Assembly (NCBI GenBank): GCA_937995275.1 | Contig: CALKKN010000222.1 | Span: 1 to 15,512, forward strand | DNA length: 15,512 bases | Direction of reading: 5' to 3' | From: an uncultured Lysobacterales bacterium | GTDB lineage: Bacteria; Pseudomonadota; Gammaproteobacteria; Xanthomonadales; SZUA-36 | Shown here: positions 12,048 through 15,365 of the stretch, piece after piece | Layout: every line of letters begins with the position of its first letter | Position numbering within the stretch: position 1 is the stretch's first letter | The notes under the pieces: model-generated | Database searches by the model: none | Told to the model about the DNA's origin: nothing | What the model saw: only the letters and a program-made list of their open reading frames with translations | Position numbers and translations under genes: made by a program

Positions 12048-12872
12048 TCAGTCCAACAGGCCCCAGGGCGCGCCCGGTGGTTCGTAGTGGAACGGAATCG
12101 GTCCCTCGACTTTGCCGTTCATGAACTGGTCCACGCGGGGCTCGATGCTGGCCGCGAGTTCTTCCGGGTTTCCTTCGCCGGCGATTCGGCCGGAGGCGAT
12201 GATGTAGCAGTAGTCGGCGAACTGGCGAACCTGGGTCACGTTATGGGACACCACGACGCTGGTCTGGCCCAGCGCGTCATTGGTTTCGCGCATCAGGGTG
12301 CGTATGGTGGACACGGCAATCGGGTCCAGGCCGGTCATCGGTTCATCGTAGAGCATGATATCGGGATCGAGCACGACGGCGCGGGCGAACGCGACCCGCC
12401 GCGCCATGCCCCCCGACAACTCGTGCGGCATCCGGTACTCGATGCCGCCCAGCCCCACGGCATTCAGCTTGCTCATGACGAGTCGCCGCACCAGGGCTTC
12501 GGGCAGATCGGTATGTTCCCGCACCGGGGTCGCGATGTTTTCGAAGACCGTGAGGTCCGTGAACAGTGCTCCGTCCTGCAGCAGCACGCCGATGTTGCGG
12601 CGGAAGTGATGCAGTTCGCGATCGGACATCGAGGAGATCAGATGCCCGTTGATCTCGACCGTGCCGGAATCCGGGCGCAGTTGCCCGGAGATAAGGCGCA
12701 GTATCGTGGTTTTGCCCACGCCGCTGGGGCCCATGAATGCCACGATGCCACCCTTCGGGATATCGATATTGACCCCGTCGAGGATCGTCCGGTCACCACG
12801 GCGGAAGACGAGGTCACGGATGCGTACCACGGGGGTGTCGGGGTTGGGGGATGTGCCGTCGCGCGTTGCCAT
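12048..12872 (-). CDS. mlaF: MlaF ATP-binding protein
   Basis: A 274-residue ATPase of the phospholipid-transport complex. Walker A is GPSGVGKT (residues 48-55), the Q-loop region is GVLLQDGALFTDLTVFENIA (typical of MlaF), the signature is LSGGMARR, Walker B is IMLYDEPMTGLDP and the switch His is in VVSHN. ATG at 12872 is chosen because the protein then begins with a short leader before the ABC domain; an upstream in-frame ATG at 12923 has no visible ribosome binding site and adds an unlikely extension. It is the first gene of the mla operon. Confidence 0.93.
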   Translation of the reverse strand: MATRDGTSPNPDTPVVRIRDLVFRRGDRTILDGVNIDIPKGGIVAFMGPSGVGKTTILRLISGQLRPDSGTVEINGHLISSMSDRELHHFRRNIGVLLQDGALFTDLTVFENIATPVREHTDLPEALVRRLVMSKLNAVGLGGIEYRMPHELSGGMARRVAFARAVVLDPDIMLYDEPMTGLDPIAVSTIRTLMRETNDALGQTSVVVSHNVTQVRQFADYCYIIASGRIAGEGNPEELAASIEPRVDQFMNGKVEGPIPFHYEPPGAPWGLLD

Positions 12873-12938
12873 AGTGTCTCGACCCGGCGCTGCCAAGGGG
12901 ACGCCAGAAAACCGGAAGACCATCGACCGGTTCGCGCA

Positions 12939-12944
12939 ATTGTA
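12939..12944 (-). promoter_or_regulatory. Possible -10 box for the mla operon
   Basis: TACAAT on the minus strand matches the sigma-70 -10 consensus in five of six bases and lies 67 bases before the mlaF ATG. No good -35 box is found 16-18 bases upstream; that space is occupied by the A-rich stretch beyond the terminator. A promoter here is expected because the terminator at 12971-13002 separates mla from the upstream RNA. Confidence 0.35.
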
Positions 12945-12970
12945 GTCGATCCACGGAAATTTTTTGAGAC

Positions 12971-13002
12971 AAAAAAAAGAGAGGAGGCGTGAGCCTCCTC
13001 TC
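12971..13002 (-). terminator. Strong intrinsic terminator of the upstream RNA
   Basis: GAGAGGAGGC (12979-12988) and GCCTCCTCTC (12993-13002) form a perfect 10-bp stem with a 4-base loop. On the minus strand it is followed at once by eight T residues (A tract at 12971-12978 on the plus strand). This is a textbook Rho-independent terminator for transcription coming from the right, and there is no protein gene there. Confidence 0.92.
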
Positions 13003-13514
13003 CGTTGTAGGGCATTGGAACTCCGCTTACGAAAGACTGCAGATCTCTCTAGGCCTTCCCAACTTCGTCCAGTTCCTCAGGACTCTGCGCCTGGACCCCG
13101 GTCGCGGACCCTCTACGTCCGCCTTATTTATCGACGTCTTTCGGCCTTCCAGCTTCCCGGGCCTGCGCCCGCTCCGCTGCCAGCTGCCGGAGCTTTCGCT
13201 CCTTTCGCCTGGTGGGCCCTCCGGCTCGCGCCTTCCGACCCCGAACCCTCCGCGACCGAAGCCGCTTCCGATTCCGACCTTCACCAGCCTAAGCTGCCTC
13301 CGGTCTTCCAGCCTGCTGAGGCCTAAGCCTCCTGGCGTCTATCTCCAGGGATCGCGTATCCCTTTCGAGTCACCCTTGTTGGTACGGCCGGCGTTTGCAG
13401 AGCCCGACCCGGGTGACATGCCCAGTACCACGTGGGCATTCGGTTCCGTTTTCTGTCACCCTCCTGCACCTTTCGGCGGGTCGGCCGTCCGGCCGGTGGG
13501 TTTCATCTAACGGG
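12971..13514 (-). ncRNA. Long structured noncoding RNA candidate (about 540 nt), family unknown, possibly CsrB/RsmZ-like
   Basis: The region is bounded by a TTGACA promoter and a strong intrinsic terminator on the minus strand, yet holds no credible protein. The transcript can form many local hairpins: GGCC-GGAC-GGCC (13494-13483), a long two-part stem joining 13461-13454 to 13418-13411 with an inner ATGCCCA/TGGGCAT stem, AGGGAT/ATCCCT (13363-13347), GAGGC-TTAG-GCCTC (13331-13318), CAGC-TTAG-GCTG (13296-13285), GCC-GGAG-GGC (13225-13216) and GGAGC-GAAA-GCTCC (13202-13189). I count about 23 GGA triplets, at least two in hairpin loops, as in RNAs that bind CsrA/RsmA. Only about five are AGGA, so that identity is uncertain. 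Hallmarks of RNase P RNA, tmRNA, 6S and SRP RNA are absent. The 5' end is inferred from the -10 position. Confidence 0.7.
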
Positions 13515-13520
13515 GAATTA

Positions 13521-13549
13521 AAAGTACTCCTGTGAAATAAGACTGTCAA
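13521..13549 (-). promoter_or_regulatory. Sigma-70 promoter of the long RNA
   Basis: A perfect -35 box TTGACA lies at 13549-13544. After a 17-base spacer comes TACTTT (13526-13521) as the -10 box, matching the consensus in three of six bases, with AAT just beyond. Transcription would start near 13514. No ribosome binding site and lasting frame follow: the first ATG, at 13507, gives only a 16-codon frame. Spacing and the matching terminator downstream support the call. Confidence 0.65.
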
Positions 13550-13550
13550 C

Positions 13551-13808
13551 TCTCCAAATCGCGGGTTTACGGAAATCATCTCAGCATTCGTCTCACATCA
13601 AATTTACAAGTGACTGAATAGCCAACCAACAACAGAATCCGCAGGAAATTTCCATTTGCGACGAACCGAAGTTGATGCTCAAAAAAAGACCAAATCGGCA
13701 TACGCCAAAGGAGCCGAGGGCGAAGAAGCGCAACCGGAGTGCCCTGGCGTGTGAAAGAACGGAAGTCAGGCTCCTTGTTTGCTATCCTGTCTTCTCGCTC
13801 GTCCAGCA
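13551..13808. other. Divergent intergenic region between the RNA promoter and mltF
   Basis: About 260 bases with lower GC than the surroundings and no credible gene. It must hold the upstream control region of the minus-strand RNA and the promoter of mltF. A weak TATCCT -10-like hexamer lies at 13783-13788 on the plus strand, without a convincing -35. No strong ribosome binding site precedes mltF. Confidence 0.5.
13645..13652. promoter_or_regulatory. GAAATTTC palindrome upstream of the RNA promoter
   Basis: An 8-bp perfect palindrome, extended to 10 bp as GGAAATTTCC (13644-13653), lies about 130 bases upstream of the inferred RNA start and about 155 bases before mltF. The core equals the centre of the LetA-type box known for the GacA-family regulator that drives Csr RNAs in Legionella, but the flanks do not match. 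It could serve either divergent gene, or be chance. Confidence 0.2.
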
Positions 13809-15365
13809 ATGAAATCGACCATGCCCAAAGCCTACCTGTTGCTGTCGTTCTGCCTGATCTTCGCCGCCTGCAGCGATGCCGACTCGACCGCACCCGCGCC
13901 GGGGAGCGAGAAACCCGCGGCAGCGGCGCCGCAAGCGCCCGATGCCGAGCAGATCGCCGTGGCCCCGCCCGAACCGCCCGAACCGCTCGAGCAGGACCTG
14001 GGCATACCCGTCCTGTCGGCCGCATGGACCGGCGACCTCGACGGCATGACGCAGCGCCGCGTCATCCGCGTACTGACGGTGTACGGATTCCCGCGTTACT
14101 TTCTGGACGGAGCCACGGAGCGCGGTCTTGTGTACGAATTGTTCAAGTTGTTCGAGGAGTTCATCAACAAAAAATTGGACAAGGATCACCCGAAGGTGCA
14201 CGTGGTGTTGATTCCCGTTGCCCGGGATGAACTGATATCGGGACTCGTCGACGGGCGCGGCGACATCGCCGCAGCCGGGCTCACGATCACGCCGGAGCGC
14301 GAGGAAGTGATTGATTTCACCGACCCGGTGACCCGCGAACTGTCGGAAGTCCTGGTGACCGGTCCGTCAGCCCCGCCCATCGACTCGATCGAGGGTCTCT
14401 CCGGGCAGGAACTGCACGTGCGCCTGTCCAGCAGTTACCGGGCCAGCCTCGACGACCTGAACCGGCGTCTGCGCGAGCGGGGCATGCCGGAGGTGGTGCT
14501 GCGGGATGCGTCCGAGTTCCTGGAAGACGAGGACCTGCTGGAAATGGTCAATTCGGGCATGCTGCCCTGGGCTGTCGTCGACGATTACAAGGCCGACGCG
14601 CTGCTCGACGTGTTCGACGGGCTGGAGGTGCGCAGCGACCTGGTGCTGCGCAAGGGCGGCAGGGTCGGCCAGGCGGTCCGGAAGAACAGCCCCCAGCTGC
14701 TGGCAATTCTCAATGAGTTTCTGAAAACCCACAAACAGGGCACGCTGATCGGCAACGTGCTGATCAACCGTTATGTCCGGGATTTCGACTGGAGCACGAA
14801 TGCGCTGGTGGGGGAGGACTATGAGCGGTTCGAGAGCGTTATCTCCATCTTCGAGAACTACGGTCAGCAGTACGGCCTGGACTACCTGCTGGTGGCGGCT
14901 CAGGGCTACCAGGAGTCCCAGCTGGACCAAAGCCGCAGGAGCAGGGCCGGGGCCGTCGGCATCATGCAATTGCTGCCCAGTACCGCCCGTGATCCGAACG
15001 TGGGCATCCAGGACATTTCCCAGGCCGAGAACAACATCCACGCGGGTATCAGGTACCTGGACTTCATTCGCGGACGCTACTACGACGATCCGGCTATCGA
15101 CCACTTCAACAAGACCCTGTTCGCGCTGGCCTCTTACAATGCCGGTCCGGCCCGCATCCGCGCGGTGCGCGCGAAAGCCGCGGAGCGGGGTTACGATCCC
15201 GATATCTGGTTCGATAACGTCGAACTGGTCGCCTTGCAGGAAGTCGGCACCGAGCCGGTGAACTACGTTGCCAACATTCTCAAGTACTACACCGCGTACT
15301 ATCTGATCGTCTCACGCCATGATGAGCGTGCCGAGGAGCGGGAAAGGGTCGCCCCGGACGGCTAG
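13809..15365 (+). CDS. mltF: Membrane-bound lytic murein transglycosylase F
   Basis: A 518-residue lipoprotein that cleaves the glycan strands of peptidoglycan. The signal peptide ends in LIFAAC (Cys21). After an Ala/Pro-rich linker, residues about 80-315 form a solute-binding-protein family-3-like domain (RVIRVLTVYGFPRYF; DGRGDIAAAGLTITPEREEVIDFT), as in E. coli MltF, where it acts as a regulatory module. Residues about 350-500 are the SLT domain, with catalytic Glu369 in GYQESQLD, then GAVGIMQLLPSTA, NIHAGIRYLD and ALASYNAGPARI. ATG at 13809 gives a normal signal peptide; ATG at 13821 is an alternative, and neither has a clear ribosome binding site. It is transcribed away from the noncoding RNA. 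Confidence 0.93.
   Translation: MKSTMPKAYLLLSFCLIFAACSDADSTAPAPGSEKPAAAAPQAPDAEQIAVAPPEPPEPLEQDLGIPVLSAAWTGDLDGMTQRRVIRVLTVYGFPRYFLDGATERGLVYELFKLFEEFINKKLDKDHPKVHVVLIPVARDELISGLVDGRGDIAAAGLTITPEREEVIDFTDPVTRELSEVLVTGPSAPPIDSIEGLSGQELHVRLSSSYRASLDDLNRRLRERGMPEVVLRDASEFLEDEDLLEMVNSGMLPWAVVDDYKADALLDVFDGLEVRSDLVLRKGGRVGQAVRKNSPQLLAILNEFLKTHKQGTLIGNVLINRYVRDFDWSTNALVGEDYERFESVISIFENYGQQYGLDYLLVAAQGYQESQLDQSRRSRAGAVGIMQLLPSTARDPNVGIQDISQAENNIHAGIRYLDFIRGRYYDDPAIDHFNKTLFALASYNAGPARIRAVRAKAAERGYDPDIWFDNVELVALQEVGTEPVNYVANILKYYTAYYLIVSRHDERAEERERVAPDG

Follow-up and report, generated by a model that had tools for sequence, protein, structure and literature searches.

Introduction

Bacterial RNA classes of around 540 nt are, to our knowledge, few. 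Several of the large bacterial RNAs, among them OLE, ROOL and GOLLD, are described as still lacking a function (PMC12286853). OLE RNA is reported as a highly structured molecule of ~600 nt, whose function is not established and whose hosts are mostly Gram-positive (PMC12054373, PMC12265935). ROOL and GOLLD are described as large, structured RNAs without known function that form RNA-only cages and are encoded in phages and prophages, and pseudoknots are reported for ROOL (PMC12286853).

Here we analyzed a putative RNA gene of similar size on a 15,512-nt stretch of DNA (contig CALKKN010000222.1 of assembly GCA_937995275.1; hereafter the window) from an uncultured bacterium of the Lysobacterales, an order within the Gammaproteobacteria. 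The original prediction, made from the letters of the window, had proposed a self-standing noncoding RNA with its own promoter and terminator. Beyond that proposal, we describe pseudoknots, expansion arms, an upstream box shared with the nrdJ locus and a second host family. Features lie on the minus strand unless stated otherwise.

Results

Promoter, terminator and coding potential

The unit spans positions 13549-12971 from promoter through terminator and is predicted to yield a structured noncoding RNA of ~540 nt (12971..13514) starting near 13514. The -35 box TTGACA (13544..13549) is followed after a spacer of 17 bases by the -10 sequence TACTTT (13521..13526), which matches TATAAT at 3/6 positions. 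Since the promoter scan of the window region requires at least 4/6 matches at -10, it listed no promoter. The unit ends in an intrinsic terminator (12971..13003) with a covarying stem of 11 pairs and a 4-base loop (13003-12978) and a run of eight T (12978-12971). Terminator-like sites in the window region number four, compared with 1.4 expected.

The perfect -35 box with a weak -10 and the hairpin with eight T had been the starting points of the original prediction, and both are kept in relatives. All 32 homologues having complete loci carry TTGAC followed by a start motif, CCCG or AACGCC; the invariance of TTGAC is in part due to construction because it was itself used as a search term. The exact TTGACA is present in 29 of these 32, the TA of the -10 sequence in 32, and its consensus TA..TT at the fixed 17-base spacing in 31; a terminator-like hairpin adjoining a T run occurs in every one. 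The folding energy of the minus strand has a z score of -2.82 (1 of 100 shuffles was equally good) and that of the plus strand -1.82, which by itself is modest evidence for an RNA gene.

Open reading frames do exist over the locus, with 85 and 69 residues on the minus strand and 173 and 120 on the plus strand, but none is common to the 32 relatives, in which the longest frames vary in length, frame and place on both strands. A protein-coding reading was rejected on this ground, in agreement with the earlier statement that the unit holds no plausible protein. The 173-residue frame (12989-13510, plus strand) runs antisense across nearly the whole RNA, and the relatives do not have the same frame.

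No match to Rfam 15 was obtained for the window at the gathering thresholds, and a relaxed search of positions 12900-13700 returned five matches with E-values of 6.2-9.4. All matches in ten homologue loci were likewise below gathering, and the weak microRNA and sRNA matches were taken as chance; one to mir-341 (E 1.4e-6, L179:76-199) does not fall within the RNA. The unit was also rejected as the genome's RNase P RNA, tmRNA or 6S RNA, since the window's genome (G000) carries these separately at C129, C318 and C228 and none of their models matches the locus. No SRP family was among the Rfam matches at the locus, gathering and relaxed searches included. OLE, ROOL and GOLLD are included in Rfam, and their covariance models gave no match in the window or in the ten homologue loci. 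Among the papers listed in literature searches, none describes this RNA, judged by titles and the openings of abstracts.

Taken together, promoter, terminator, a conserved covarying fold (see below) and the lack of a common reading frame indicate that the unit is almost certainly a real, standalone noncoding RNA gene. The Rfam result, the homologues, the covariation and the coding analysis all support the proposal that this lineage has an RNA family not described before.

Host range and genomic context

When 41 genomes, 25 of them from the window's family, were searched at the DNA level, 22 had matches, and all 22 belong to that family. A covariance model of core domain 1 built from 19 sequences (R1) matched 33 of 39 genomes of the family, including 21 of the 22 with at least 90% completeness and at most 5% contamination, and had no match in 260 genomes from the rest of the order. 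When the model was rebuilt to include divergent members (R2), 398 genomes of the order yielded the same 33 genomes and three of another family, f5 (E 1.2e-4 to 1.7e-3). Both models were also run on 369 genomes of the class, where G000 alone matched. Searches that covered more than 40 genomes used stricter filters and scored only ~9-13 first-look candidates in each genome, so divergent copies may be missed and these absences are not proof.

The three f5 loci (L177, L178 and L179) look like real homologues. Their promoters read TTGACC twice (18-base spacer) and TTGACT once (17-base spacer), and a terminator as well as the motifs GAGATAGACGC and CGTCGA[AT]AAA are present at each locus.

Six family genomes had no R1 match. 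G004 (96% complete) also lacks mlaF, the gene that usually adjoins the RNA, while G046 gave no mlaF match and G042 only a distant mlaF relative. In G021 (77% complete) mlaF is present with no RNA beside it, in G051 the mlaF piece is interrupted by a contig end, and G054 (60% complete) belongs to genus g7, whose RNA is not near mlaF.

The RNA occupies one place per genome, with the exception of G047 and G048, which have two matches each. Both pairs are pieces at contig ends. Those of G048 (L087, L088) are identical in domain 1 (110/110), whereas those of G047 (L085, L086) agree at 108/110 positions there and differ more upstream. As its two pieces differ, G047, with a contamination of 6%, may contain either a second copy of the RNA or DNA from a contaminating strain. 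The contig-end pieces L085, L087 and L088 were left out of the length survey and of the later counts of 32. The two versions in G047, despite that contamination, would suit an RNA of a mobile element or phage (a ROOL- or GOLLD-like RNA, a retron or an intron), as would the phage and prophage origin described for ROOL and GOLLD (PMC12286853). However, neither blastn-level searches of phages and plasmids nor two exact patterns in viral contigs gave a match, and the single place per genome and the stable synteny with mlaF make such an origin highly improbable.

Downstream of the RNA gene lies an mlaF-like gene on the same strand (12048..12923), outside the RNA and with a -10-like TACAAT of its own, and upstream a divergent mltF-like gene (13779..15365, plus strand). 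Their best NCBIfam models are MlaF (308 bits, cut-off 441) and MltF (169 bits, cut-off 354), both below the curated cut-offs. In relatives, homologues of the RNA stand next to the same genes: of the 33 RNA-bearing family genomes, 30 have mlaF behind the RNA on the same strand, and an mltF relative precedes it in 7 of 35 loci.

This arrangement with mlaF could suggest a long leader or attenuator of the downstream mla operon. Yet a strong terminator separates the RNA from mlaF, and the -10-like sequence stands immediately before mlaF and is kept in G021, where no RNA adjoins that gene. In the three genomes of g7, RNA and mlaF are on separate contigs, and in one of them (G017) the RNA is flanked by the genes for YchF and a bifunctional aspartate kinase/diaminopimelate decarboxylase; a gene of the latter kind also adjoins the RNA in G007. 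In f5, no mlaF-like frame was found within the 7-10 kb stretches around the RNA, and glnE adjoins it in L177. With the RNA relocated in some lineages and mlaF found without it, a role as mla leader is largely refuted and we regard it as very improbable. Since its linkage to mlaF is broken in these lineages, the RNA is an independent gene.

Core fold, covariation and pseudoknots

The consensus fold begins with helix P1, whose 5' strand CCCCGTT (13509..13515) pairs with 13446-13450, and includes core domain 1 (13335..13442), the part covered by R1 and R2. The core motif GAGAUAGACG (13336..13345) is present in 38/38 rows of alignment A4, and its GACG pairs with the CGUC of a second core motif, CGUCGAUAAAUAA (13124..13136).

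In 19 rows of domain 1, 95.9% of the cells are paired and 13 of 33 pairs show changes on both sides, with 37 both-side-changed cells compared with 10.2 in shuffled controls. The 36 distinct rows of A4, an alignment that leans toward the structure because it was fitted to the model, have 94.5% of cells paired and both-side changes in 18/33 pairs, with 110 changed cells vs 28.4 (sd 6.0) in shuffles and 8-24 in slid structures. Under a tree-based null, in which substitutions are replayed on the tree and slid structures serve as controls, 8 of 33 structure pairs in A4 and 13 of 90 in a longer, 28-row alignment (without G007, G010, G017 and G023) reached a two-set E<0.05, compared with 0-1 for the slid controls, the tested structures being derived from the same alignments. 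Thus, testing for covariation, as the original prediction had suggested, finds structure pairs covarying above controls. When all pairs were tested, only one pair passed in each alignment, with weak E-values; clade structure dominates the covariation signal, and the two-set test together with the slid controls carries the argument. Alignments A1 and A2 leave out L020.

Two pseudoknots are predicted. In the first, the loop UGGUAC (13425..13430) of the hairpin at 13418-13439 pairs with GUACCA (13380-13385). It is nearly invariant inside the window's family, with 99.5% of cells paired in A4, and was computed in all three f5 loci, where the register is shifted to GGUGGU/ACCACC in two genomes and GUGGUA/UGCCAC in the third. 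This shift in a second family supports the predicted pairing.

In the second, the loop GUAGAGGG (13109-13116) of a hairpin with covarying stem pairs (13104..13122) would pair with CCCUAC (13007-13012). The mean duplex energy of matched loops and 3' strands was -7.05 kcal/mol, compared with -5.27 kcal/mol for mismatched ones, and 0 of 20000 permutations were as good, a statistic that ignores kinship among the sequences and uses loop and 3' windows chosen by the author (the 3' strand of G010 was set by hand). The pairing was also computed in L177 and L179. Compensatory changes (GUAGUC/GACUAC in G013 and GGUAA/UUACC in G002) support this putative pseudoknot.

Large ribozymes have compact cores with pseudoknots and conserved motifs. 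The present RNA likewise has a compact core, a pair of predicted pseudoknots and motifs that are conserved (GAGAUAGACG ... GAUAAAUAA), which could point to a catalytic RNA, but neither a substrate nor a cleavage site is suggested and no Rfam ribozyme matches, so that we consider catalysis rather unlikely.

Length and expansion arms

Among the 32 copies with a complete locus, the RNA ranges from ~358 to 899 nt (the lengths for G043 and G044 are slightly short, their 3' limit having been placed inside the terminator hairpin). The length varies because two arms expand, while the core is constant: the RNA consists of ~350 nt plus lineage-specific hairpin arms. The large arm, which sits on the GACG/CGUC helix, measures 198 nt in the window (13137..13334) and 5 to 557 nt in relatives, and a second, 5' arm is enlarged in other relatives. 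The arms of G005 and G052 are made of repeated hairpin units. A tandem hairpin array with periods of 34, 58 and 68 forms the arm at L076:5077-5421, and tandem hairpin units were also seen by eye in the arm of L093, upstream of position 601.

CsrB-type sponges carry repeated GGA in hairpin loops that bind CsrA. A protein-sequestering regulatory RNA, CsrB- or 6S-like, whose purine-rich repeated hairpin arms titrate a regulator, would account for the repeated units in the arms and for the conserved sites upstream of the gene, and the GGA count exceeds the shuffle mean in 28/32 RNAs (24 vs 19.9 in the window). The GGA excess is small, however, and reversed in G002, G007, G043 and G044. Moreover, the arms are short in some relatives, down to ~358 nt in total, whereas the sequence of the core is conserved, and a separate 6S RNA is present. 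We therefore view sequestration as an unlikely function, if a less doubtful one than catalysis.

Upstream box and the nrdJ locus

Upstream of the promoter lies a 15-base box with a 12-base core, TTCGGTTCGTCGCAA (13656..13670; consensus TTCGNTTYRTCGCAA), and relatives have this box at their nrdJ locus as well. A second conserved element, TATTCAG.AACTTG (13607..13620), was recognized by eye in the alignment. TTCGNTTYRTCGCAA has 60 matches in the 39 family genomes, compared with three for the reversed pattern. Twenty-eight of them are at RNA genes, including two in G047 and one at a contig end in G052 that was judged by a TTGACA 120 bp on; 24 are at nrdJ, 23 genomes being assigned by a ten-residue word at the gene start and G042 by promoter features only; seven are elsewhere, and one, at a contig end, is undecided. 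One match away from both loci, L152:1520 in G012, falls in a 291-nt open frame and is possibly a further target.

With a slightly looser 12-base core, the box was found upstream of 31/32 RNA genes, at 108-119 bp from the -35 box in 27 and at 19 bp in four; in G052, only 92 bp are available upstream of the RNA gene. The box accompanies the RNA in g7 as well, although the RNA is away from mlaF there. No such box was seen by eye upstream of the three f5 copies. Upstream of the RNA, those loci show, by eye, a repeated element of their own that resembles CAAACCTGGCCCCT / CAAACCCGACCCCT, and a TTCG box was not seen there. In four genomes of one genus (G043, G044, G045 and G019; loci L080, L081, L082 and L083), TTATNCACA, which we take to be DnaA-box-like, occurs between box and promoter, 25-93 bp before the -35 box.

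At the nrdJ locus, the box sits in the region between a divergent gene and nrdJ, which encodes a class II ribonucleotide reductase. The box is inverted there and located 148-151 bp before a TTTGACA in 21/23 genomes, and is followed by ACACAATATCTTGTGT-like palindromes, which resemble NrdR boxes. The one nrdJ product checked, a 302-residue fragment, had NrdJ_Z as its best NCBIfam model (E 1.5e-66, 225 bits, cut-off 400). As the box is close to the start of the divergent gene, which encodes a small exported protein or trmL, that gene rather than nrdJ may be its true target there. In L142, the divergent gene encodes a 190-residue protein without an NCBIfam match, followed by trmL (186.5 bits, cut-off 190.6). 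A small exported-looking protein that is divergent to nrdJ and precedes trmL was also noted in L125, L133, L143-L145, L147 and L149, and in several nrdJ loci inverted TTTGCGACG...CGTCGCAAA flanks the upstream region of the small divergent gene.

Outside the family, the box gave 15 matches in 126 genomes, compared with six for the reversed pattern. The ten of these loci that were inspected are all inside long open frames and show no NrdR-like palindromes. These findings suggest that the RNA is possibly co-regulated with the nrdJ locus.

Discussion

On balance, we favor the explanation that the gene encodes a large structural RNA that would act in trans and possibly be co-regulated with the nrdJ locus. 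A dedicated gene would make a compact, pseudoknotted RNA from a ~350-nt core and lineage-specific hairpin arms. This RNA might serve as the core of a particle, either with protein or RNA-only like GOLLD, ROOL and OLE, and its amount could be set by an activator shared with the nrdJ locus, which would couple its production to DNA-precursor synthesis or fast growth. We give the particle mechanism about an even chance. A broader proposal, that of a hitherto unknown RNA machine of the housekeeping type (a ribozyme or an RNA/RNP particle) in one gammaproteobacterial order, which would run in step with ribonucleotide reductase and serve DNA-precursor supply or chromosome replication, is tentative and rather speculative.

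Most of the genomes sampled from this largely uncultured family carry the RNA, its promoter region is conserved, and it matches no catalogued RNA family. The same upstream box at the RNA and nrdJ loci provides a testable regulatory link, while the defined core, the two predicted pseudoknots and the natural short (~358 nt) and long (~899 nt) forms suit structural work.

Like RNase P RNA, tmRNA and 6S RNA, the RNA described here is a standalone structured RNA gene found across a clade. It shares its approximate size and high degree of structure with OLE RNA as reported, whose hosts, in contrast to those of the window RNA, are described as mostly Gram-positive (PMC12054373, PMC12265935). With ROOL and GOLLD, as described, it has in common that it is large and structured, and with ROOL also the pseudoknots, predicted in the present RNA. 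ROOL and GOLLD are reported as encoded in phages and prophages (PMC12286853), whereas the window RNA keeps a chromosomal neighbor across its family and had no match in the phage, plasmid or viral sets covered. In its predicted architecture, this RNA follows the general plan of the large ornate RNAs, but by the tests applied it falls outside those families.
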